Shown here piece by piece: positions 29,382 to 63,335 of a stretch of 64,000 bases of DNA. Position 1 is the first letter of the stretch. Every line of letters begins with the position of its first letter. The notes beneath the pieces were generated by a model. The model was not told where the DNA came from. It worked only from the letters and a program-made list of their open reading frames with translations, and did no database searches. The position numbers and the translations under genes are program-made. Source of the stretch: Acidobacteriaceae bacterium (GTDB taxonomy: Bacteria > Acidobacteriota > Terriglobia > Bryobacterales > Bryobacteraceae); NCBI GenBank assembly GCA_019233755.1, contig JAFAMD010000016.1:62001-126000 (forward strand), given 5' to 3'.

Positions 29382-30806
29382 TTGAAGAAAAAGTGGAAAT
29401 TACTGCTTTTGCTCGGCCTGCTGGTGGTCATAGGGGGCGCGGTGTTTGCCAGCATTACGATCAGCGAGCGGGGTGTGGTCGTGGTGCAGACCAGCAAGGT
29501 CAGCCGCATGGACCTGGCGTCCGTGGTGACGGCTTCGGGCGAGGTGAAACCGCGTAATTACATCAACATTGGAGCCAGCACGCCCGGCCCGGCGCCGATC
29601 ACGGCCATCTACGTAAAGGAAGGCGATCACGTCAAAAAAGGCCAGACCCTGGCGAGGCTTGCCGACGTCCAGCCTTCGGCTGATCTGAAGGCGCAGCAGG
29701 CCGCGCTCAATTCGGCTCTGGCGGATTCCGCCGCGAGCGAAGCCGCCGAAAAATCGGCCGACGACAATATCGCGGTCGCGCAAGCCCAGGTAGATCACGA
29801 CCGTGCCGACCTTGAACAGAAGACAGCCGATCTGAAACGCAACCAGGAGCTCTTCAACAGTAAGCTCATCGCTACGCAGGATTTCGAACTGAAGAAGGCC
29901 GGCTATGATCTGGCGGTAGCCACGCTTCAGCAGTCGACGCGGAAGGTGCAGCAGGCACAGGCACAGAAGGCCGAGGCCGCGGCTCAACTCGCTTCGGCCC
30001 AACGCAAAGTAGCACAGGCGCAGGCCATGGTGGCACGCTCTACCGATGTACTGGCCCAATACGATGCCGCAGCACCGATTGACGGAGTCATTACCAACCT
30101 GCCGGTTCGTGCCGGCGAAACGGTCGTCCCCGGCATCCAGAATTCGGCGGCGTCAACCATCATGACCATCGCCGACATGTCCATCATCACGGCCGAGGTG
30201 AACGTCGATGAGACGGATATTGTCAGCGTCAAGCTCGATCAGCCTGCGGACGTAACCATCGACGCGATCCCGAACCGGGTCTTCAAAGGCCGGGTAATCG
30301 AAATCGGCGATACCGCGATTGTTCGTTCCACCGGACTGGCGGCTTCGCAGAGCCAGACCTCCAGCCAGGAAGCCAAAGATTTCAAAGTGAAGATCGCGCT
30401 GGATATCAGCGAAGATCTCGTGCGCCCGGGTCTCTCCTGCACCGCAAAGATCACCACCGCGACGCGTTCCCACGTGCTCTCGATTCCTATTCAGGCCCTG
30501 ACGATCCGCACGAAGGCGCAACTGGCGCCGCCCAAGTCCGGCGAGCGCGTTCAGCAGCTTGACCCCGCGGCGCAAAAGGCTGCCAATGAGGAACTGCAGG
30601 GCGTTTTCGTGGTAAGCAACGGCAAAGCCCAGTTTCGCCAGGTTCAGACCGGTATCAGCGGCGCTACCGATATCGAGGTCTCGAGCGGGCTGAAGGACGG
30701 GGACCAGATCGTCACGGGCAGCTATCAGGTCATTCGCACAATCCGCAATGACGCTAAGGTGAAAATAGACAATAAGCCGCCGGCCGTGGGGCCGATAGCC
30801 AGCTAA
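29382..30806 (+). CDS. HlyD/MacA-type periplasmic adaptor of an ABC efflux system
   Basis: A 474-residue adaptor. The start is TTG 29382 (LKKKWKLLLLLGLLVVIGGAVF), giving an N-terminal signal anchor. The lipoyl half-motifs are GASTPGPAPITAIYVKEGDHVKKGQTLARL and APIDGVITNLPVRAGETVVPG. The long alpha-helical hairpin (about residues 105-225) has heptad-like Ala/Gln-rich stretches that would contact TolC. The C-terminal beta-barrel and membrane-proximal domains follow. It lies between an ADOP permease (163 bp upstream) and a MacB-type ATPase (21 bp downstream), so it probably bridges them to an outer-membrane TolC. Confidence 0.93.
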   Translation: MKKKWKLLLLLGLLVVIGGAVFASITISERGVVVVQTSKVSRMDLASVVTASGEVKPRNYINIGASTPGPAPITAIYVKEGDHVKKGQTLARLADVQPSADLKAQQAALNSALADSAASEAAEKSADDNIAVAQAQVDHDRADLEQKTADLKRNQELFNSKLIATQDFELKKAGYDLAVATLQQSTRKVQQAQAQKAEAAAQLASAQRKVAQAQAMVARSTDVLAQYDAAAPIDGVITNLPVRAGETVVPGIQNSAASTIMTIADMSIITAEVNVDETDIVSVKLDQPADVTIDAIPNRVFKGRVIEIGDTAIVRSTGLAASQSQTSSQEAKDFKVKIALDISEDLVRPGLSCTAKITTATRSHVLSIPIQALTIRTKAQLAPPKSGERVQQLDPAAQKAANEELQGVFVVSNGKAQFRQVQTGISGATDIEVSSGLKDGDQIVTGSYQVIRTIRNDAKVKIDNKPPAVGPIAS

Positions 30807-30827: not shown

Positions 30828-31601
30828 ATGCCAGCCTTGGAAGCCGTTCAGGAACTCAGCCCGAAAGAACTCGAAGAACGCGGTGAGCGGTTGCGGAACG
30901 ACGGTATTGTCATTCGCACCTACGATCTTTGGAAAACCTACATTATGGGCGACCAGGAGATTCACGCTGTATCCGGTGTCGATATCGAAATCCGGCGCGG
31001 CGAGTACGTCGCGATTATGGGTCCGTCCGGCTCCGGCAAATCGACCCTGATGAACCTCATCGGCTGCCTCGACACGCCCACCAAGGGCTTGTATTATCTC
31101 AACGGCAAGCTCGCCAGCGACATGGAAGATGACGAACTGGCGCGCATCCGGAACAAGGAAATAGGCTTCGTTTTCCAGACCTTCAATCTGCTGGCCCGGG
31201 CAAGTGCGCTACATAACGTTGAACTACCTTTGATCTACGCCGGCGTCCCCTCTCAGGAGCGGGCTGAACGAGCCCGCACAGCACTCCGCTCGGTCGATCT
31301 CGAACCGCGGATGCACCACAAACCGAATGAACTCTCCGGCGGCCAGCGGCAACGTGTGGCCATTGCACGGGCACTGGTAAACCGGCCCTCCATTCTGCTG
31401 GCAGATGAACCAACTGGTGCCCTCGACACCGCGACAGGCAAAGAGATCATGGCTCTGTTTGAGCGCCTACACAGCGATGGCAATACTATCGTGTTGGTTA
31501 CGCATGAGCCGGATATCGCTCTGTACGCACATCGTGTCATTCACATCCGCGACGGCAAGGTCGAACTGGATGAGGAGACGCCGCGCCCCGAGCGAAAGTA
31601 G
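30828..31601 (+). CDS. ABC transporter ATP-binding protein (MacB/LolD type)
   Basis: A 257-residue stand-alone ATPase. Walker A is GPSGSGKS (65-72), the Q-loop is VFQTFNLL, the signature motif is LSGGQ (169-173), Walker B is LLADEP (190-195), and the switch His is in LVTHEPD. The motif pattern and length match the nucleotide-binding domains that power MacB, LolCDE and FtsEX-like permeases. A 28-residue N-terminal extension ([18 protein letters not shown]) is acidic and helical. It is the third gene in the ADOP-HlyD-ATPase set. No canonical MacB permease follows, so the ADOP is the likely partner (inference). Confidence 0.95.
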
Positions 31602-53177: not shown

Positions 53178-54134
53178 TCAAGTTTCGGCATAGTAGCGGT
53201 CCGTCGCCTGAACGATCAATCCCTTCTCCTTGGTCTTTAATTGAAGCTTACGAAACCCCGAGGATGTGACCGGCTGGTCAGAGACGAAACCGAGGCTGTA
53301 CTGGCTGCGCAGCTCCTCCTGGATGGCGTCGTAGATCTGGCTGATGCTGCGAGTTTTCGACACCTCGAAGTAGCCGCCGCCAGTTTCGCCGGCGAGATGC
53401 TTCAGGACACCTTTGCCGCTGGGCCCGAGTGAGAGATGGCCGCCGTAGTAGGACTCGTCGGAGAACAGGATGCAGTAGACGAGGGTATCGGCGCGCTGTG
53501 CGGCTTCGATGGCATCCGTGAGGGTAACGGTACTGCCGAAGTCGACACCATCTGTGAGGACGATGAAGGCTTTGCGGCCCTGTACGCTGCGCATAACCTT
53601 GATAGAAGCGGTGCGAACGGCATCGTAGAGCAGCGTGCCGCTGCCGTTGCGGGCCTGCTCGGCAGTCGGCGAATCAATCAGGGAAAGCGTATCCTGCAGA
53701 TCTTTGTGCGAGGCGGTAAGGCCCTGGCGGATGACGACCGCCTGATCGAATTGAACGATGACACCCTTGTCTTTGTCTTCACGCAGGACCTGGTCGAGAA
53801 ACCGGTTGCTGGCGCCGCGCTCGTCTTCGAGGACCTTGGTCTGGCTGAGACTGCTGTCAACGAGCAGGCCGATGGTAAGCGGGAGATCAGATTCCTGGGA
53901 GAAGTAGCGGATGATTTGCGGCTTGCCGTTCTCGAGCAGGGTGAAATCGGTCTTGCCCAGATTGCGAATGATCTGGCCGCCTTTGTCACGCACGGTAGCG
54001 AAGACGTTGACAACTTTGACCTCGGCAGAAAATGTAGGTTGATCCTGCCCGTGCAGCACACGCGCGCTCAGTACGGCGCAGGCAGTTGAGGCGAGCCACT
54101 GACGGCGTGTGAGGGGATGGGGAAGGCTGCACAT
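53178..54134 (-). CDS. VWFA-related Acidobacteria domain protein, exported
   Basis: A 318-residue protein from ATG 54132-54134 (a GTG 17 codons upstream is possible). The N-terminus carries a signal with TRRQWLASTACAVLSARVLHG, which looks twin-arginine-like or Sec. The first domain includes VFATVRDKGGQIIRNLGKTDFTLLENGKPQ, then a von Willebrand A fold: MIDAS start LLVDSSLSQ, and FIVLTDGVDFGS. The C-terminal segment is RSQYSLGFV. This corresponds to the acidobacterial VWFA-related family found in very many copies per genome. Binding partners are unknown. Confidence 0.9.
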   Translation of the reverse strand: MCSLPHPLTRRQWLASTACAVLSARVLHGQDQPTFSAEVKVVNVFATVRDKGGQIIRNLGKTDFTLLENGKPQIIRYFSQESDLPLTIGLLVDSSLSQTKVLEDERGASNRFLDQVLREDKDKGVIVQFDQAVVIRQGLTASHKDLQDTLSLIDSPTAEQARNGSGTLLYDAVRTASIKVMRSVQGRKAFIVLTDGVDFGSTVTLTDAIEAAQRADTLVYCILFSDESYYGGHLSLGPSGKGVLKHLAGETGGGYFEVSKTRSISQIYDAIQEELRSQYSLGFVSDQPVTSSGFRKLQLKTKEKGLIVQATDRYYAET

Positions 54135-54213
54135 CTTTAGATAGACGGACGAACGGCCCGGGTCCGGTACTGCAACAATCGACACGGGCCAGGTGTTTCT
54201 ACTGGGGGTCCAG

Positions 54214-54357: not shown

Positions 54358-54442
54358 TGGCAGGCCAACTTGCCTCTTGAAGCGGGGCAAACCTTCGGCT
54401 AACATCGGGTGACCTCTTTGGGCAGAAGGAGAGCGAACCGTG

Positions 54443-55537
54443 ATGTTACTGCGAGTCTTACGTGCCACCGCCTTGGCTGTGCCTTTTCTTGCAATGGCGG
54501 AACTGAGTGTCAGCGCCCAGACATCCACTGCTTCGGGCGAAGCTGTACTTCCATTGAGCATCCGCAGCTCCGATCGTGCGGCTGCCTCAAGTTATTCCGA
54601 TTTGCGAGTCCGTGTATTCCCCAGGCTGAATGACGACGGGACGGTTCGACAATCGTCAACATTGACGTTAGGCGATTCGGGGAGCCGGCCCTTCCTCACA
54701 GAAGGCGCAGAAGCAAATACCCAGCCGGAAACACTCCCGGACAGTTCGGTACGGTCAGTACCCGGCGTGCCGCCACCCGGTTTTTACCCGGCGGACGTCG
54801 CCTATCACGGTGGCGCCCTTTTGAAATCAGTGCAATCAAATAACGTCTATGTCAGCCGTCCGTCGACGGAATGGGGCGATCCGGCAAAGTTCCTGGCGGA
54901 TCTCGGAAAGAGCACGTTTGTTCATACGATTGATCAGTACGTGCACGAGACTTCGGCGAATCGATATACCGTCGGCATCGGAGCTACGATTCTGTATCCG
55001 ATTTTCGGTGTCCTGGGAAATAACGATCTTCTCCAGATTGTTCACTCCGCCGCCTCATTCTTTGGCAGCGGCTACGGACACATCTACCACGTCTTTCTTC
55101 CCAAGGGCGTCGACTTTTGCGACGAGCCGAGCGGGCAGTGTTATTCGCCGGATAACCCGTCCACATTCGTCTTTTGCGCTTTTCATGGAAGCGTCCAGTT
55201 CAGCGATATTGGCCATGTCATTTTTAGCCTGGAACCGTACCAGAACGTTCTCGGCTGTTCGACCCAGCAGCCAAGTCCGAATGGGGCGCTCATAGATTCA
55301 ACAGATAATGTGCTGTCCCACGAGTTGTTCGAGGCGATCAGTGACCCTGATCCTGGGAGTGGCTGGTATGCACAAAATTCGCTGGGCACGTTCGGCCAGG
55401 AGATCGGCGACCTGTGCCCTGGCATCTCTCTGACTGGTCCGTTTTTCAAGAACCCTGTCAGCAGGCTGAACGGCCATCTTTATGAGATTCAATTGGAATA
55501 CTCGAACACCTACCATGCGTGTGCGAATGTTCCGTAG
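54443..55537 (+). CDS. Secreted EXORDIUM/PHI-1-like protein with HEL-x-E motif
   Basis: A 364-residue protein with a signal peptide (LLRVLRATALAVPFLAMAELSVSA); AGAAGGAGAG precedes the start (GTG 54440 or ATG 54443). The core shows YHVFLPKGVDFC, then CAFHGS, and DNVLSHELFEAISDPDPGSGWY with EIGDLCPG, a pattern of the plant EXORDIUM/phosphate-induced-1 family and its bacterial relatives. His-Glu-Leu-x-Glu followed by Asp could form a metal site, so a metallohydrolase role is conceivable, but no activity is established. The gene converges on the fused permease-phosphatase gene. Confidence 0.7.
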   Translation: MLLRVLRATALAVPFLAMAELSVSAQTSTASGEAVLPLSIRSSDRAAASSYSDLRVRVFPRLNDDGTVRQSSTLTLGDSGSRPFLTEGAEANTQPETLPDSSVRSVPGVPPPGFYPADVAYHGGALLKSVQSNNVYVSRPSTEWGDPAKFLADLGKSTFVHTIDQYVHETSANRYTVGIGATILYPIFGVLGNNDLLQIVHSAASFFGSGYGHIYHVFLPKGVDFCDEPSGQCYSPDNPSTFVFCAFHGSVQFSDIGHVIFSLEPYQNVLGCSTQQPSPNGALIDSTDNVLSHELFEAISDPDPGSGWYAQNSLGTFGQEIGDLCPGISLTGPFFKNPVSRLNGHLYEIQLEYSNTYHACANVP

Positions 55538-55544
55538 CTAATCG

Positions 55545-58500
55545 CTATACGACTCTCATCAAGATAAAAGTCAGGTCATCGAACTGCGGAGCATCGGCCA
55601 TCCAAACCTTGAGCTCCTGGAGAATCTGCGACGCCATTTCGTTGATGGGGAGATGAGCGGTGCGGCGGAGAACGTCTTTCAGGCGGTCTTCGCCGAACTC
55701 TTCCTCGTCCGGGTTGTGCGCTTCCGTCACTCCGTCGCTGAACGCAATCATGACATCACCTGATTTGAGCTCGACGGACGCCTCTTCGTAGCTGGATTGG
55801 GCGAACATCCCGATGATGGTGCCGCCGGCGGCAAGCTCTTCAATGGGCGCGGCGGAGGCAACGAAAGGGACAGGCGAGTGAGTTTCTGCCGCGCGAAGGA
55901 GTAGCGGCGGGTTGTGTCCGGCGTTGACGTAGCGGAGGCGCCGTTGCTCTTCGTCGATTTGACCATAGAAAAACGTTGCGTAGCTGCTGGTGCCGGTTGA
56001 CCGGTGCAGGAGTCGGTTCATTTTGCTCGCGAGCTCGGCGAGGGAACCACCGTTGGTGTCGGCGAGGCTGCGGAGCGAAGCCTGGACGACCGACATGATG
56101 AGAGCCGCGGCAATGCCCTTCCCCGCTACGTCGGCAAGAGCGATGCCGATCTGCCGATTGCCGAGATCCAGGAAGTCATAGTAGTCGCCGCCGACCCCGC
56201 GAGCCGGGAGGCACATGCCGGCGAGCTGAATGCTAGCGGTTTCGGGAAATTTCTCGGGGAACAGGCGCTTCTGCACTTCGGCGGCGAGGAGGAGTTCGCG
56301 GCGAAGGCGCTCCTGTTCAACGATGCGATCAGTGAGGCGGCTGTTTTCGAGCATAAGCGCCAGTTGTGCAGCGGCGGTACGGACCGCGCGGCACTCCTCG
56401 GCGCTGTAGGCGGAGCGGGCGTTTGGCTCTCCCAACAGAAGAATGCCGATCATCTCGGTTTTCGAGAGTACAGGAACGGCAAGGCGCGCGTTGAGGGCGG
56501 CGAGGGTATCGAGTTCGGAAACGTGCTCCGGCGCAAACTCGGCGGCCCAGTTTCGGATACCGGTGAGTTCGCAGGCGGAGACCGGCAGGGCAGACGAGTA
56601 ATTGCGAAGCCGGTTCAGCAGAAGCGCGTTGGCGGGCAGGATTGCTTCGCGAGGACTTGTTTGCGCGGCGGCCGCGCTGAGCCGGAATGGCTGATCCGGC
56701 AATTTACGAGTGAAAAGGTAAGCTGCGCAAGCTTGCACTCGTTCGCGCAGGACCTGGAGGGCGGCTTCGATCGCCTGGGGAAAGGACTCGGCGCGGCGGC
56801 TCGTCTCAGAGATCGCCGCGAGAAGTTCGCCTGCCGGGTTGGGCGCTTCGGGCGCATGACGAATCACTTCGGAGATGCGTTCAGTCAGGAGCCGGTAATT
56901 AAAACGCACCCGGTTCAAATGCAGATCGCTGCGGACAGCGACCATCGGAGAGAGCGTGCCTGCGCGCCAGGCGGGAAACCAGCAGGCGAGCAAAGTGCAG
57001 GCGGCGACTAGAACAATTGCGCCGAAGAACGGAAAAGGGCCGGAGAAGTGGACGTGCAGGTCACTGGTGGCGAGCAGGCGCGCGCACCCCAGCACGATAA
57101 CGAGGCCAAGGCCGATGCCGATGGCAGCCATCCTGATACCGTCGCCGATGACGAGGCGCCACAGATCGCGGGGCGCGGCACCCATTGCCATGCGGGTCCC
57201 CATTTCGGTGATGCGCTGCCTAACTGAGTAGGCGATGACGCCGTAGAGGCCGAGAAGAGCGAGCAGCAGCGCCGATGCAGCGAAGAAGGCAATCATGAGC
57301 GATTGCAAGCGCTGGCGCGAGAGCGAGTTCCGGATGAGTTCGGGCATCGTCGAGACATCGAAGATAGGCTGATCAGGATCGATGCTTTGCACGGCGCGGC
57401 GGAGCTCGTCTGTCAGAGCGGCTTTCGGCAGCGGCGAGCGCACGGCCCAGGTCATGTCCGAAGGCGTTACGGCACGGTATGAGAGATAGAACTCGGGGCG
57501 CACCTCGCGATAGAGGCCGGCGTTGCGGGTATCGCCAACGATGCCGACGATCTGAAACCGTTTGTCCCAGGAAAGAATCCGGACATAGGCGCCGAGCGGG
57601 TTGCTATTCGGCCAATACAGCTTTGCGAGAGTCTGGTTAATGACCATCGGGACGACATCGCCGATTTTGTCTGCCTCAGTGAGGAAACGGCCGGCAAGCA
57701 GCGGAATGCGCATGCTCTGAAAGTAATCGGGACTGATAAAACGTTGCTCGATGGATTCGGTCTCGAGCCAGTTCTTCGGAACGGGCCGGCCCTCCACGCG
57801 CATAACGGTGTTATTACCCCATCCCGTGAGCGGCATGAGATCGGTAAACCCTGCGTTTTCTACACCTGGGAGGCGACGGATGGTTTCGATGAGGCGGGTT
57901 TCGTAGGCAGCCTTTTCGTCCTGTGTTTTGTACTTCAGCTCCGGCGCGTAGACATGCATAACGAGGAGGTTTGCGGTATCGAAACCGGGATGAATGCGGT
58001 AGAGGCCGCGCAGGTGCTGCGCAATGAGTCCGCCGACGACCAGCAGGGCAAACGCGAGAGCCACTTCGGCAACGACAAAGAAGCGCAACAGGCTGCGGCT
58101 GCGCGCGCCGGCGGACGCACGGGTGCCTTCGCTTAGGGCCTCGTTTGGAGCAACGCGGTGTGCCTGCCAGAGAGGGAAGAAGCTGAAGAAGAAAGCGCAT
58201 CCTACGGCGAGCGTGAGAGCGAAGCCGAGCACCTGCCAGTTGAAGGCAATTTGATCGGAGCGCGGAATTTCGTCAGCCGCTAGAGAAACAGCGATGCGCA
58301 CCAGGATGTAGCTGAGCAGCGAGCCCAAGACTGTGCCGGCAAGCGAAACGATAAGGCCTTCAGCGAAGTACTGGACTCCCAACTGCCAGCCGGTAGCACC
58401 GAGAGCGACGCGGACTGCTGTGTCCCGGGCCCGCGCGACAGAACGGGCCAACAGGACGCTCGCTACGTTCGCGCAGGTGATCACGAACAAAGCAATCGCT

Positions 58501-59342
58501 GCAATAAATAAGAGGATCAGGCTCGGGCGGATGCCTTCGACCGCGAATTCGAGGACCGGAATGAGATACTCGAAGTCCGGCTCTGCGTCAGCGGGGTGCT
58601 GGCGCCGCAGGCCGGCGAGGATGCGATCGAAATCCTGACTCGCCTGCCCAGGCGTGCCGCCGACCGGGAGCTTAACCACGCAACGCAGATAGTGATACGA
58701 CCGATACTGCTTTTGATTGGAATCGGGGTTCAGCGGAATCCATACGTCGTTCTTGTCCTCATATATGGGGTAGCGAAACCAGCCGGGCATCACACCAACG
58801 ATGGTGTAGCGGGTGCCGTCGATAGTGACCGGTTTGCCGAGGATAGCGGGATCGGAGCCGAAGCGGCGCCATAATGCGCTCGAAATAACCGCCGCATAGG
58901 GCCCATTCGGTTCCTTCCTGTCTTCCTCAAGCTTGTCTTGCTCAAACCAGCGGCCCATAACGGGTGAGACGCCGAATGAATTAACCAATGCGGCGGACAC
59001 CTGCGTGCCGACGACGTGCACGGGTTGTCGATTGAACGTGACGTTGATGCTGCCGGTGGAGCTACAGCCATAGGCCTCGACACTTCGAAGCTGAGCAGCA
59101 TAATCGAGGTAATCGGAGTAAGAGGTTACCGTCCACCAGTTCGGATGCGCACGCCACGCGCCGAACACGCTGTAATAACGCTCCGGATTGGCGTACGGCA
59201 GCGGGTTCAACAACACCGCGTGAATGAGCGAATAGATGGCGGTGGTGGAACCTATGCCAATTGCAAGGGCGGCGACGGCGAGAAGAGCAACGGCCCGCGC
59301 GCTCTTCCATGCCCGCCAGCCATGCAGAACGGAAGCAAGCAT
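55545..59342 (-). CDS. ADOP permease fused to GAF-like region and SpoIIE/PP2C phosphatase
   Basis: A 1265-residue protein. Residues 1-810 are a full ADOP: first FtsX helix and LGIGSTTAIYSLIHAVLLNPLPY-type start (28-50), ILGKPVTIDGTRYTIVGVMPG (167-187), helices at 275-345 and 370-395, a second unit with LGAYVRILSWDKRFQIVGIVGD, and terminal helices at 685-705, 740-755 and 772-788 ending in SPMVAVRSD (798-806). Residues about 830-1000 look GAF-like (LAALNARLAVPVLSKTEMIGILLLGEP). Residues 1010-1265 are a SpoIIE-type PP2C domain: LLAAEVQKRLFPE, GGDYYDF (Asp1053), LADVAGKG (Asp1071), FSDGVTEA (Asp1203) and DDLT (Asp1255-1256). All metal-binding aspartates are kept, so the phosphatase is probably active. 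It likely combines periplasmic sensing with cytoplasmic dephosphorylation. Confidence 0.93.
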   Translation of the reverse strand: MLASVLHGWRAWKSARAVALLAVAALAIGIGSTTAIYSLIHAVLLNPLPYANPERYYSVFGAWRAHPNWWTVTSYSDYLDYAAQLRSVEAYGCSSTGSINVTFNRQPVHVVGTQVSAALVNSFGVSPVMGRWFEQDKLEEDRKEPNGPYAAVISSALWRRFGSDPAILGKPVTIDGTRYTIVGVMPGWFRYPIYEDKNDVWIPLNPDSNQKQYRSYHYLRCVVKLPVGGTPGQASQDFDRILAGLRRQHPADAEPDFEYLIPVLEFAVEGIRPSLILLFIAAIALFVITCANVASVLLARSVARARDTAVRVALGATGWQLGVQYFAEGLIVSLAGTVLGSLLSYILVRIAVSLAADEIPRSDQIAFNWQVLGFALTLAVGCAFFFSFFPLWQAHRVAPNEALSEGTRASAGARSRSLLRFFVVAEVALAFALLVVGGLIAQHLRGLYRIHPGFDTANLLVMHVYAPELKYKTQDEKAAYETRLIETIRRLPGVENAGFTDLMPLTGWGNNTVMRVEGRPVPKNWLETESIEQRFISPDYFQSMRIPLLAGRFLTEADKIGDVVPMVINQTLAKLYWPNSNPLGAYVRILSWDKRFQIVGIVGDTRNAGLYREVRPEFYLSYRAVTPSDMTWAVRSPLPKAALTDELRRAVQSIDPDQPIFDVSTMPELIRNSLSRQRLQSLMIAFFAASALLLALLGLYGVIAYSVRQRITEMGTRMAMGAAPRDLWRLVIGDGIRMAAIGIGLGLVIVLGCARLLATSDLHVHFSGPFPFFGAIVLVAACTLLACWFPAWRAGTLSPMVAVRSDLHLNRVRFNYRLLTERISEVIRHAPEAPNPAGELLAAISETSRRAESFPQAIEAALQVLRERVQACAAYLFTRKLPDQPFRLSAAAAQTSPREAILPANALLLNRLRNYSSALPVSACELTGIRNWAAEFAPEHVSELDTLAALNARLAVPVLSKTEMIGILLLGEPNARSAYSAEECRAVRTAAAQLALMLENSRLTDRIVEQERLRRELLLAAEVQKRLFPEKFPETASIQLAGMCLPARGVGGDYYDFLDLGNRQIGIALADVAGKGIAAALIMSVVQASLRSLADTNGGSLAELASKMNRLLHRSTGTSSYATFFYGQIDEEQRRLRYVNAGHNPPLLLRAAETHSPVPFVASAAPIEELAAGGTIIGMFAQSSYEEASVELKSGDVMIAFSDGVTEAHNPDEEEFGEDRLKDVLRRTAHLPINEMASQILQELKVWMADAPQFDDLTFILMRVV

Positions 59343-59380
59343 CCCTGAAGGTAGATCATACAGGGTTTGCCGCCCCCGGA

Positions 59381-61816
59381 CTATTCATAATGAAGGGCCT
59401 GCATCGGCGGAATGCGCGCCGCACGGATCGCCGGAACGATGCAGGCCAACAAAGCACAGGCGGCGAACAACAAGGTGGAAGTGGCCAGGGTTAGCGGATC
59501 GCTCGGGCTGGTTTTGGCCAGAACGGCCCGGACCACGAAATGGCTCAGCCAGGCGCCGCCAAGGCCAAGGACGAGACCGGGCAAGAGAAGGCAGAGTCCG
59601 CGGACCGTGACCCGACGAAGGATGTCATTTGCAGTAGCCCCGAGGGTCATTCGGATGCCGAACTCCTGCGTGCGGCTTCCGGCAACGTAGCTGATGACGC
59701 CGTAAATGCCGACGACGGACAGAACAACCGCCAGGACAGCGAAGCCGATCATCCAGATCACCATGAGCCTATTGGCCGCCATTTGCTCCGCGATCAGCGT
59801 ATCGAGCGAACTAATACGCGAGAACGCAAGATCCCGATCGAGACCCTCGACGGCAGCCAACATGGCTTGAGCAGCCGAAGCGTCAGCGCTGCTGCGGGAA
59901 CGAAGCAGCAAGTGCATCTCGCGGCTGGGAAATTGGCGGTAGGAAGCGAGCAGCATCGGTCGAGGGCGCTCACCTGGTTCGAATTGCGAGGCATCCTCGA
60001 CGAGGCCAACAATGCGAATGGACTGGCCGCTATCGCCCATTATTTGAATCGTATGGCCGAGGGGATCGCGACCGGACAAGTAGCGGTCTGCAAAGGTGCG
60101 ATTGATGATGCCCACAGGGCTTTGACCTGCATCATCCCGTGAATCAATGCCCCGGCCGCGCAGCAAGCGCAGGCGAAGCACCTGAAGATAGTCTGGCGAG
60201 ACGGGGTTGAAGAGGGTGGACGGGATCGCGTCAGGCCGCGCCGCAATCCCGTCGAGTTCGAACCGGACAGCTTTGGTCCATCCACCAAAGGGCGGGAATT
60301 CCGAGATGGCGGCAGATTCGGCTTGCTGAATGCTTTGTGCTCGCGACAGCAGTTCGTTGAAAAACTGCCGGATTCTGTCGTCGTTCGGATATTGCTTTTG
60401 AGGCAGAGAGAGTCGGCCCAAAAAGACGTGGTGAGGGTCAAAGCCGAGGCTCACCGAGTAAATAGCGAGTAAGTCGCGGCACAGAAGACCGGAGATGACG
60501 AAGACCGTCAATGTCATGGCTATCTCGCCTATGACCAGCAGATCGCGCCAAAGGCCGAGGCGCAGCGTACCAGAGGAGCCTCGCGATATCTCTTTCAGCA
60601 CTTCATGAACGTCGAGGGTGCTGAGCCGCAGAGCCGGACTCACACTGAAGAGGATGCCCGCCAAAAGTGCGATTCCCAGGGCGTAACCGAGAACAGGATA
60701 GTTGAGCCCGACGCGGCCGTAATTCGGTAAGTACTGCGCCAGACTTTCGGGAAGGCGGCTTCCGATTCCGCTGGTCATCCCAGCGGCTACCAGCAAGGAG
60801 ACCGCTCCACCGGCAAGGAAGAGGAGAATGCCCTCTGTTACTAACTGCCGGGCAAGGCGCCAGCGGCCGACGCCCAGGGCGAGCCGCACGGCGATTTCGC
60901 GGCGGCGGTTGATGGATCGCGCAAGGACAAGATTCGCGACGTTCGTGCAGGCGATCAGCAGAAGGCAGGCCACCACCCACAACAACACCCGGATGCCGTT
61001 CTCCCCGCTCTGACGCGCAACGGCTTCGGCATACGGAAGAACGCGAAAGCCGAGGTTGTTGTGAGTCGCCGGAAAACGGCGCTCGAGGCCGCGAGCAAGG
61101 CGGTCGAGGGTCGCCCTGGCCTGAGCGATCGTGACGCCAGGACTGACGCGGGCGAAGATGGCAATGCTGCGGTCTGCGCGGTTAAAACGTTCGCGCGGTC
61201 CGAGGACCAGCGGCACCCAGACGTTCATCGCACCCATGAGGGGAACGTGAAACCGCGGGGGCATGATGCCGATGACCCGGTAATCCGTGCCTTCGAGCCG
61301 AATATTTTTGCCGATGATGTTAGGGTCGGCCGCATAGCGGCGCTGCCACAGGCCATTGCTGATCACAACTACCTGCGCCTGGCTCTTGCTTGTTTCCTCG
61401 GGAAGAAAGCTGCGGCCTTCGGCCGGCTTGACGCCAAAGAGCGGGAAGAAATCGGACGAAACACGGGCACCCTGCACGCGTTCGGGCTCGAGACCCGCTC
61501 CGCTGAGATTAAAGCCCTCCAGGTCGAACCCCGCAACAGACTGGAACGTGTTATGGGTTGCTTCGCGGAATTCGGTGTAATCGGCCGGAGAGAGATCTTC
61601 AACCGAGCGTTGCAGCCGCTGCTCAAAGCGAATCAGAGCGATTTGTTCAGAGTGCGCGAACGGTGAGGGAGTCAGGAGGAAAGCGTAGGCGAAGCTGAAG
61701 ACCCCGACATTGCAACCGATGCCGAGCGCGAGAGTAATGACGGCCGTGAGAGTGAAGCCGGGATTCCTGCGAAAGAGGTGGAGCGCGTAGCGAATATCCT
61801 GGCCCAGACTCTGCAT
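59381..61816 (-). CDS. ADOP: acidobacterial duplicated MacB/FtsX-type permease
   Basis: An 811-residue double permease starting at ATG 61814-61816. The N-terminus reads LGQDIRYALHLFRRNPGFTLTAVITLALGIGCNVGVFSFAYAFLL. The first permease core has LLLIACTNVANLVLARSINRRREIAVRLALGVGRWRLARQLV. The second unit has VVGIYGVISYVAGSRTQEFGIRMTLGATANDILRRV and the closing AIRAARIPPMQALHYE. It ends 38 bp before the start of the ADOP-phosphatase fusion, so the two permeases probably form one operon and may act as a heteromeric pair. No ATPase gene is adjacent. Confidence 0.93.
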   Translation of the reverse strand: MQSLGQDIRYALHLFRRNPGFTLTAVITLALGIGCNVGVFSFAYAFLLTPSPFAHSEQIALIRFEQRLQRSVEDLSPADYTEFREATHNTFQSVAGFDLEGFNLSGAGLEPERVQGARVSSDFFPLFGVKPAEGRSFLPEETSKSQAQVVVISNGLWQRRYAADPNIIGKNIRLEGTDYRVIGIMPPRFHVPLMGAMNVWVPLVLGPRERFNRADRSIAIFARVSPGVTIAQARATLDRLARGLERRFPATHNNLGFRVLPYAEAVARQSGENGIRVLLWVVACLLLIACTNVANLVLARSINRRREIAVRLALGVGRWRLARQLVTEGILLFLAGGAVSLLVAAGMTSGIGSRLPESLAQYLPNYGRVGLNYPVLGYALGIALLAGILFSVSPALRLSTLDVHEVLKEISRGSSGTLRLGLWRDLLVIGEIAMTLTVFVISGLLCRDLLAIYSVSLGFDPHHVFLGRLSLPQKQYPNDDRIRQFFNELLSRAQSIQQAESAAISEFPPFGGWTKAVRFELDGIAARPDAIPSTLFNPVSPDYLQVLRLRLLRGRGIDSRDDAGQSPVGIINRTFADRYLSGRDPLGHTIQIMGDSGQSIRIVGLVEDASQFEPGERPRPMLLASYRQFPSREMHLLLRSRSSADASAAQAMLAAVEGLDRDLAFSRISSLDTLIAEQMAANRLMVIWMIGFAVLAVVLSVVGIYGVISYVAGSRTQEFGIRMTLGATANDILRRVTVRGLCLLLPGLVLGLGGAWLSHFVVRAVLAKTSPSDPLTLATSTLLFAACALLACIVPAIRAARIPPMQALHYE

Positions 61817-61889: not shown

Positions 61890-62423
61890 CTAATCCGAAT
61901 AGAAAAGGTATTTGCGCCATTGATCGTCGCTGCGACCGAGAAGGCGCATGAGGTGCCGGCTGGTATGCAGGCTGAAGGGGCGGGGCGGGCGAAGCAGTTT
62001 CATTCCGGCTTCTTCAGGCGTTCGGCTGCCCTTTCTGTTATTGCAGGGATGGCAGCAGGCGACAAGGTTTTCCCAGGTAGTCTCGCCGGCGCGGGAACGG
62101 GGGATTACATGATCGAGCGTCATCTCGCCCGAAGGCAGCGTCTTGTGGCAGTACTGGCAGGTGTAGCGGTCGCGCATCAGGATGTTCTTGCGCGAGAGGG
62201 CACGGGTCTGATGCGGGATGCGCCGGTATTCGAGCAGGCGAATCACCGAAGGCACTTTTAGCGAGAGCCTGGCGGAATGAACATGAGACGGCGCCAATTC
62301 TTCGGCGGACGCCACGCCTTTCAGAATCAACACCAGCGCCCGCCTTGCCGCGCAGATGTTGATGGGCTCGTAGCTGGCATTCAGCACGAGGACAGGTCTA
62401 TGAAGTCGATCCAGACTGGGCAT
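61890..62423 (-). CDS. HNH endonuclease
   Basis: A 177-residue protein starting at ATG 62421-62423, with GGAG 8 bases upstream; an earlier ATG (62453) is possible. The N-terminal region, [20 protein letters not shown], precedes the HNH fold: [47 protein letters not shown]. It shows two CxxC zinc pairs and the His-Asn-His-type catalytic loop around TLDHV. The family is widespread as a stand-alone nuclease with no fixed biological role. The next gene downstream on the same strand would be an ADOP gene, separated by 73 bp. Confidence 0.92.
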
Positions 62424-62483
62424 CAAACACGCTCCACTTACCTTGGCCCGCATACAGCTTTCGAGCCTGAAATCTAAAACTCG

Positions 62484-63335
62484 CTACTCGGGCGCCGTTC
62501 CGGCCGGGGCGCGCTGCGCCGCCACATGCCGGGATAAAGCCAAACCTGGCCGGGATAAAGCCAAACCTGGCCGGTGAAAAGCAAAATCTGAACCCAGAGA
62601 GCGACGGTCCACCCGCGCCAGAGTCAGGGCCGATACACGTGCGGCGCCCGCCTTCTTCAATGCGGCGGAAGCCGCGCGCAGCGTCGCGCCCGTAGTGAAA
62701 ACGTCGTCTATCAGCAAAATCCGCTTGCCGGCTAACTGGCCGGGGCGCTTAACCTGGAACGAGCCCCGCAGGTTTTCGCGCCGTTCGGTCTCACTGAGGC
62801 CAGCCTGCGACTTTGTGTGGCGCGCGCGGCGGAGGTTCGCAGAAAGCGGCATCCTCAAGCGCCGGGCAACGGGCCGCGCGAGCAATTCCGCCTGATTAAA
62901 GCCGCGCTCCCATTGCTTGCGCCAGTGCATCGGCATGGCGAGCACCAGGTCGAACTTCTCATCGAGCGGCAGCGCTTGTATCAGCAAGCGGCTCAAGGGC
63001 AGCGCCAGGCTCTCAATTTTTCCGTATTTAAAAAGATGAATTAATTTCTGGAGGGTACCTTCAAAGCTGCCGAAAGAGTAACAGGCGTCAAAGTTCGCCA
63101 TACTCTCGCGGCAGACCGTACAAAGGTCGTGCTCATCCAGTGGATAGGCATCCACAAAGGGCGTTCGGCAGGCTCTGCAGAAGAACTCTGCCTCCAGAAG
63201 TTTGGGAAGAGAAAGACAGGCAGGACAGACGGGAATTCGGGATATACCAACGAGAGGCTGCTCGCAGAGGCGGCAGTCGTCAGGGAAAACCGTGTTGAAA
63301 AAAGAGCGTGAGAGAGTTGCAGCGCCTTTTAGCAG
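62484..63335 (-). CDS. comF: ComF-family phosphoribosyltransferase with double zinc ribbon, non-AUG start
   Basis: A protein of about 283 residues. The C-terminal phosphoribosyltransferase domain has the PRPP loop LLIDDVFTTGATLRAASAAL and the acceptor region HWRKQWERGFNQAELLARPVARRL. A GTG at 63153-63155 looks like a start, but the same frame continues upstream as FFNTVFPDDCRLCEQPLVGI and then CPAC and CRAC, giving the N-terminal zinc ribbons typical of ComF. No ATG, GTG or TTG exists before the TAG at 63405-63407. CTG 63333-63335 (then LKGAATLSRSFF) is the best start candidate. The C-terminus contains a 21-bp tandem repeat. ComF assists DNA uptake in competent bacteria. Confidence 0.85.
   Translation of the reverse strand: MLKGAATLSRSFFNTVFPDDCRLCEQPLVGISRIPVCPACLSLPKLLEAEFFCRACRTPFVDAYPLDEHDLCTVCRESMANFDACYSFGSFEGTLQKLIHLFKYGKIESLALPLSRLLIQALPLDEKFDLVLAMPMHWRKQWERGFNQAELLARPVARRLRMPLSANLRRARHTKSQAGLSETERRENLRGSFQVKRPGQLAGKRILLIDDVFTTGATLRAASAALKKAGAARVSALTLARVDRRSLGSDFAFHRPGLALSRPGLALSRHVAAQRAPAGTAPE
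62529..62591. repeat. 21-bp in-frame tandem repeat in comF
   Basis: Two perfect 21-bp units (62529-62549 and 62550-62570) are followed by a diverged third (62571-62591). They encode the heptapeptide RPGLALS twice plus a degenerate copy at the protein C-terminus. This looks like recent slippage expansion outside the catalytic domain. Confidence 0.8.

Follow-up and report, generated by a model that had tools for sequence, protein, structure and literature searches.

The window, by which we mean the whole stretch of 64,000 nucleotides that was analysed, harbours two neighbouring genes of the ADOP permease family on its reverse strand, one of which is fused to a phosphatase gene. The genes at this locus are the following.

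54440-55537, forward strand: protein of 365 aa, convergent with the fusion gene and ending 7 bp from it (ORF call)
55545-59342, reverse strand: fusion gene, 1265 aa, ADOP permease, GAF domain and SpoIIE/RsbU-type (PPM) phosphatase (ORF call, profile matches)
59343-59380, reverse strand: intergenic gap of 38 bp, without terminator-like site (ORF coordinates and terminator scan)
59381-61816, reverse strand: stand-alone ADOP, 811 aa, neighbour of the fusion (TIGR03434, 796.7 bits)
61890-62453, reverse strand: HNH-family (HNH-nuclease) gene, upstream and in the same direction (family match, context only)
62484-63155, reverse strand: ComF/phosphoribosyltransferase-like gene, first of the same-strand run (family match, context only)

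The ORF coordinates agree exactly with the preliminary description of this DNA, in which the 811-residue ADOP ends 38 bp before the fusion gene on the same strand. Because no terminator-like site lies within this gap, co-transcription of the two genes is plausible. The same-strand run comprises four genes (ComF, HNH, ADOP and fusion, with gaps of 30, 73 and 38 bp), so the two permeases are not set apart by their close spacing. It had also been described that neither permease gene adjoins an ABC ATPase or HlyD gene, and this was borne out, as the flanks consist of the 365-aa ORF on one side and the HNH and ComF genes on the other. The convergent 365-aa ORF had no match among Pfam-type and curated family profiles. 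An acidobacterial VWA-domain protein (TIGR03436, 217 bits) is encoded at 53178-54185 on the reverse strand. The reported lack of a PadR gene by the pair was correct as well, whereas all seven small ORFs tested directly upstream of ADOPs elsewhere in the window's genome encode PadR regulators (L159, L160, L165, L167, L174, L177 and L181). The ADOP at 26.8 kb, which had been contrasted with the pair as having ATPase, HlyD and PadR genes beside it, is indeed accompanied by an HlyD gene (29382-30806) and an ATPase gene (30828-31601), but a PadR gene was not seen there; the gaps of 120 bp and 163 bp on its two sides leave no room for one.

Both proteins score above the curated TIGR03434 cut-off of 622.3 bits, the fusion with 750.8 bits, and both contain an internal duplication of two MacB_PCD and two FtsX stretches. 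The parts of the fusion protein are encoded as follows.

56925-59342, reverse strand: ADOP half, residues 5-806, eight predicted TM helices and two MacB-like periplasmic domains (TIGR03434, AF2 model)
56403-56840, reverse strand: GAF domain, residues about 835-980, with approximate limits (profile search, model fold)
56262-56402, reverse strand: long linker helix, residues 981-1027, leading from GAF domain to phosphatase (predicted single helix)
55548-56207, reverse strand: PPM phosphatase domain, residues about 1030-1265 (PF07228, metal-site aspartates, structure match)

The AF2 model of residues 1-830, built on a 16-row alignment (pLDDT 82.6), shows two equivalent halves, which together contribute eight TM helices and two MacB-like domains on the periplasmic side. 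When searched against the PDB with Foldseek, it matched E. coli YbbP first, with MacB, LolCE and BceAB among the further matches, and MacB is also the best sequence match of the ADOP half in the PDB. Both ADOP halves keep most of the coupling-loop motif of MacB (E/D-x-x-x-R-x-A-L-G-A). With eight TM helices, both termini should lie on one side of the membrane, and most lysines and arginines of the short loops, as well as the K/R-bearing tail after TM8, are on the N-terminal side. The even helix number and this charge distribution together predict that the phosphatase end of the fusion sits in the cytosol, behind a predicted cytosolic linker between the ADOP half and the GAF domain.

Pfam GAF models remain below their cut-off in the window protein and exceed it in the separate homologues at L083, L084 and L157. 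A profile of the region between permease and phosphatase matches many solved GAF domains and the modelled region adopts an alpha/beta fold; profile search and model together settled the assignment. A second model, of residues 690-1265 (27-row alignment, mean pLDDT 84.6), contains the GAF fold, one helix (model residues 292-338) and the PPM fold, mostly at about 90 or more, and its TM and junction part is poor (about 45-77). The linker helix is predicted to be continuous and is conserved. The best PDB match of this C-terminal model was the PP2C domain of SiaA (Z 27.6, rmsd 2.5, 242 aligned), followed by Rv1364c and RssB; the Foldseek and VIA rows for this model are dominated by the phosphatase and say little on the GAF part. 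A PHROGs search found nothing. PF07228 (SpoIIE) matches residues 1063-1264 with 165.2 bits (cut-off 25). D1053, D1071, D1203 and D1255/D1256 are invariant in all 27 aligned rows and align to SpoIIE and RssB phosphatases in a profile alignment; we take these residues to be metal ligands. Judged from the alignment, the catalytic residues are intact and the domain is a putative PPM phosphatase.

The fusion, or a split or fragmentary copy of it, was found in 10 of the 17 genomes of the genus, the window's own included (G000, G001, G006, G008, G010, G011, G012, G014, G015 and G016), and G015 and G016 carry two copies each. Two further genera of the family are added by G030 and by a degenerate copy in G024, among 60 genomes. 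When 399 genomes of the class were searched, eight genes in seven genomes matched across the junction, one of them in another family (G072), and partial matches were obtained in G102, G010 and G024. Named database matches include MAGs of Bryobacterales/Bryobacteraceae, Solibacteraceae and Acidobacteriaceae. The phosphatase is the most conserved domain, with 63-74% identity to the window protein in nine relatives. The corresponding values are 36-48% for the ADOP half (eight relatives aligned), 33-44% for the GAF domain (nine relatives aligned) and 49-82% for residues 1001-1045 (nine relatives, the fusions and the split one). The periplasmic domains are kept in all intact fusions. The retention of the fusion across many relatives suggests a role as a monitor of the cell envelope.

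The genome G011, an assembly of 60 contigs, has this gene split by a TGA codon in frame where permease and phosphatase meet, which leaves an ADOP of 797 aa. The GAF-phosphatase ORF (420 aa) restarts 18 bp after the stop, with GGGAG just before its ATG, giving a natural two-protein version of the system (L041:9121-12795(-), the same locus as L082:3946-7620(+)). The permease and phosphatase parts thus look separable in G011, yet staying together. The copy in G024 (L044:7198-10210(+)) lacks residues about 484-791, and with them the greater part of the second ADOP half, and its phosphatase is frameshifted. It is apparently degenerate, so the system would be dispensable in that genome.

ADOP and GAF-SpoIIE are also encoded by separate neighbouring genes, 127 bp apart at L083 and 6 bp apart at L084. 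The latter, a Pyrinomonadaceae contig (L084:2-7174(+)), carries two consecutive ADOPs, followed by the separate GAF-SpoIIE gene and a third ADOP, and the first two ADOPs are sister copies in the ADOP tree. Among the best 80 named loci, three non-fused ones have a same-strand ADOP close by (L083, L084 and L113), and at L113 the ADOP lies behind a gene of PadR size. We considered a general association of ADOP and SpoIIE genes, but this was not supported: among the matches listed for 10 contiguous class genomes, none of 55 SpoIIE domains lay within 2 kb of an ADOP, and one SpoIIE-ADOP pair, in G117, lay within 5 kb. Stand-alone GAF-SpoIIE proteins with other N-termini exist. Clusters of two or three adjacent SpoIIE-phosphatase genes were seen at loci of Calditrichota, Ignavibacteriota and Bacteroidota (L121, L127, L135, L140, L142, L144, L151 and L152).

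The preliminary description contrasted the window pair, without a neighbouring ATPase, with the 26.8-kb ADOP, and proposed that the two permeases could form a sensor complex rather than a transporter. To our knowledge no role is known for ADOPs, which reach dozens of copies in some Acidobacteriota genomes; in the window's genome, 36 places exceed the cut-off. This genome has 53 ABC_tran matches (E <= 1e-10), and only one of the 36 ADOPs, the 26.8-kb gene of the window, has such a match within 3 kb (three within 5 kb, on either strand). With 35 of 36 ADOPs lacking an ATPase within 3 kb, a missing neighbour ATPase is the rule for ADOPs and no peculiarity of the window pair. The word orphan in the definition of the family presumably refers to the lack of an adjacent ATPase gene, and the window pair, with no ATPase or HlyD gene adjacent, is orphan in this sense. 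The name itself, acidobacterial duplicated orphan permease (as given in an excerpt of PMC11573002), records the usual absence of an ATPase neighbour. Tandem ADOPs are common too: the 36 ADOPs of the window's genome include three pairs that lie on one strand within 1.5 kb, and 10 class genomes (at least 148 ADOP matches listed) contain seven or more same-strand pairs whose matches are 22-256 bp apart.

A second, different pairing of phosphatase and ADOP occurs in the window's own genome at L045:7409-11700(-), where a SpoIIE protein with a glyoxalase/VOC domain (590 aa) overlaps the start of an ADOP gene. In the draft genomes several ADOP genes appear broken into two frames (L037:6364-7511(-), L033:4778-8637(+) and L183:3345-5850(-)), and these are either pseudogenes or assembly errors.

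A neighbourhood comparison across relatives showed that the two-ADOP arrangement is not kept. Nineteen distinct fusion loci have a visible upstream gene (the window, L031, L033, L034, L035, L036, L037, L038=L076, L039, L040, L041=L082, L043, L044, L074, L075, L078, L079, L154 and L155; L032, L077, L081 and L156 are cut by contig ends and were left out). An ADOP lies directly upstream in two of them, the window and L037, and the one at L037, 57 bp away, spans two frames and is truncated by the contig edge. This frequency is close to the tandem background of the window's genome. At L043 and L044 an ADOP is found farther upstream on the same strand. Apart from the window's genome, 59 relatives were searched for an orthologue of the 811-aa ADOP, and a single one (60% identity) was found, in G010, where it is not adjacent to the fusion; the other matches in the same 60-genome search have 36-37% identity. 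G010 also carries the fusion most similar to that of the window (L043, 70% in the ADOP half). A C-terminal piece of the orthologue (55%) lies 3.3 kb upstream of that fusion at the contig end, with DUF2961, luciferase-like (opposite strand) and HAD genes in between, and contig C437 probably carries the N-terminal piece (60%).

The same-strand neighbours of the fusion that were tested in relatives are unrelated (GyrA, DUF2071, amidohydrolase, GCV_T-like, ADH, AP-endonuclease-like and hybrid kinase), and no neighbour family recurred in three or more of 14 fusion regions. In the ADOP tree, the 811-aa protein falls outside the clade of fused ADOP halves; it did not arise by recent duplication of the permease part of the fusion. 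Moreover, family matches and the AF2 model indicate that the two halves of a MacB-like dimer are already united in a single ADOP, and the permease is thus complete without a second one. Given the few upstream ADOPs, the separated orthologue in G010 and the tandem background of the genome, we rejected a conserved two-permease unit. The 811-aa ADOP is, on this comparative evidence, probably not a conserved partner of the fusion and looks like a chance neighbour.

The history of the fusion was studied with trees of both parts. In the ADOP tree, 15 fused halves and the split one of G011 form a single clade (SH-aLRT 100), separate from 38 stand-alone ADOPs (33 from the window's genome, window included, and five from other loci). 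The ADOP halves of L154 (G146) and L155 (G072) are placed outside this main clade. The L154 phosphatase is inside the main fusion clade of the phosphatase tree, which would mean that its permease half was swapped. Repeated independent fusion was considered as well. In AU tests on a reduced ADOP set (41 of 59 rows, LG+F+G4), a single origin was not rejected (p 0.16 for L154 and 0.51 for L155). The phosphatase data (60 of 107 rows) gave p 0.106 for the main clade without L154/L156 and 0.38 for all fusions together. Since these tests do not reject one origin, we do not claim that the fusion arose more than once.

The real find at this locus is the conserved permease-phosphatase fusion; the missing ATPase and the tandem are ordinary for ADOPs. 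We consider it moderately probable that the fusion is a one-protein membrane signalling device, in which a permease-type receptor controls a PPM phosphatase from the membrane and the neighbouring ADOP is incidental. The ADOP half, with its two MacB-like periplasmic domains and eight TM helices, would serve as a permease-fold membrane input, and its last TM helix would lead into the cytosolic GAF domain, a long dimerisation helix and the PPM serine/threonine phosphatase. A periplasmic or membrane event, either a ligand or a state of the envelope, might change the conformation of the permease, and this change may reach the phosphatase by way of the GAF domain and the helix, with the GAF domain acting as relay or second input. 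The phosphatase could in turn remove phosphate from a protein encoded at another locus, for which an anti-sigma-factor antagonist (STAS protein) is the likeliest candidate. STAS and HATPase_c_2 genes occur together at two places in the window's genome (C8 and C45). Contig C27, to which the window belongs, has no match to STAS or HATPase_c_2; no partner-switching gene stands beside the fusion, and as no STAS gene adjoins it, the STAS target is a guess.

According to an excerpt of PMC12143880, RsbU-type phosphatases have exchangeable N-terminal sensors that act via a dimeric helical linker. This mechanism fits the layout of the fusion, in which the ADOP half would be an input of this kind. We infer the signal, the direction of control, dimerisation and the substrate, as well as a sensing rather than a transporting role for the permease half. 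The earlier proposal of a two-permease sensor thus holds in part. A sensor fits the fusion protein itself, with its conserved fusion, intact phosphatase, conserved GAF domain and linker helix and cytosolic C-terminus; the two-permease unit does not stand, and a two-permease sensor is unlikely. It is possible, although we say so tentatively, that ADOPs as a family are ATP-independent membrane receptors with a MacB fold, of which the ADOP-PPM fusion would be a receptor with a built-in output enzyme.

Alternatively, the ADOP half could be a working type VII ABC permease that shares an ATPase in trans, while the phosphatase reports on or adjusts the flux as BceAB does towards BceS. The retained coupling-loop motifs would leave room for such docking, and any of the 53 ABC_tran matches could supply the partner. 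The 26.8-kb ADOP does sit with HlyD and ATPase genes, and in Bce modules an FtsX-type permease steers a signalling enzyme (excerpts of PMC10314905 and PMC7828314). However, nearly all ADOPs of the genome stand apart from ATPase genes, and no relative of the window's ATPase was found beside the fusion in the regions examined; at L040 one lies 6.6 kb away. We regard a transporter with a flux reporter as rather unlikely. Distinctly unlikely in our view is that the ADOP half is a mere membrane anchor which clusters the phosphatase while the GAF domain reads a cytosolic signal. GAF domains are known inputs of PPM phosphatases (PMC12143880, in the excerpt), the ADOP half is far less conserved than the phosphatase, and two ADOP halves lie outside the main clade (L154 and L155). 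On the other hand, a full two-domain permease with eight TM helices is an expensive anchor, its periplasmic domains persist throughout the intact fusions, and the stand-alone GAF-SpoIIE proteins have other N-termini.

A heteromeric sensor formed by the co-expressed 811-aa ADOP and the fusion is very unlikely. The shared strand, the short gap without terminator and the ADOP upstream at L037 are consistent with it, as is L084, where two ADOPs precede the separate GAF-SpoIIE gene and a third follows. Against it speak the rarity of a direct upstream ADOP, the orthologue found in a single relative and separated there from the fusion by three genes, and the fact that tandem ADOPs are common anyway. 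That two genes were joined by an annotation or assembly error is next to impossible. The window's genome is a draft of 71 contigs, but the same junction is present in independently assembled genomes of several genera, which contradicts an artefact.

We found no paper in which a permease of the ADOP or MacB type is joined to a PPM phosphatase; this search covered open-licence PMC only and is weak evidence of absence. The conserved covalent link to a readable enzyme makes it directly testable whether the permease is a receptor or a transporter, as mutations in the permease half, or candidate ligands added to it, can be judged by their effect on phosphatase output. If ADOPs were receptors, permease-phosphatases would be a new class of transmembrane signalling protein.

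Compared with known systems, the fusion resembles ADOP permeases (TIGR03434) in that both window proteins pass the family cut-off, have two MacB_PCD and FtsX units per chain and lack a neighbouring ATPase; it differs by the added C-terminal GAF-PPM phosphatase of about 460 aa. With MacB, YbbP and LolCDE, all type VII ABC permeases, it shares the fold of the ADOP half, whereas it has no ATPase domain or gene and carries an additional cytosolic enzyme; neither an ATPase domain or gene nor an HlyD adaptor, as expected of a MacAB-type pump, is present in the fusion or adjoining it. As in BceAB-BceS, an ABC permease and a signalling enzyme would act together in the membrane (PMC10314905 and PMC7828314, excerpts). 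Bce, however, has an ATPase and a separate histidine kinase, while the fusion has a covalent phosphatase and no linked ATPase, and no Bce-type ATPase or histidine kinase genes are adjacent to it. The layout of a partner-switching operon (RsbV/RsbW/sigma) was also not seen, as STAS and anti-sigma kinase genes do not lie beside the phosphatase. The phosphatase end is most like RsbU, RsbP, RsbZ and SiaA-type phosphatases, with which it shares the PPM fold, the metal-site residues and a predicted helical linker from a putative N-terminal sensor; the PP2C of SiaA is its best structural match, and RsbZ also uses GAF domains (excerpt of PMC12143880). In contrast to these proteins, whose inputs are PAS, GAF, HAMP or receiver domains alone, the N-terminal input of the fusion is a complete type VII permease fold, which would thereby be added to the exchangeable inputs of PPM phosphatases.
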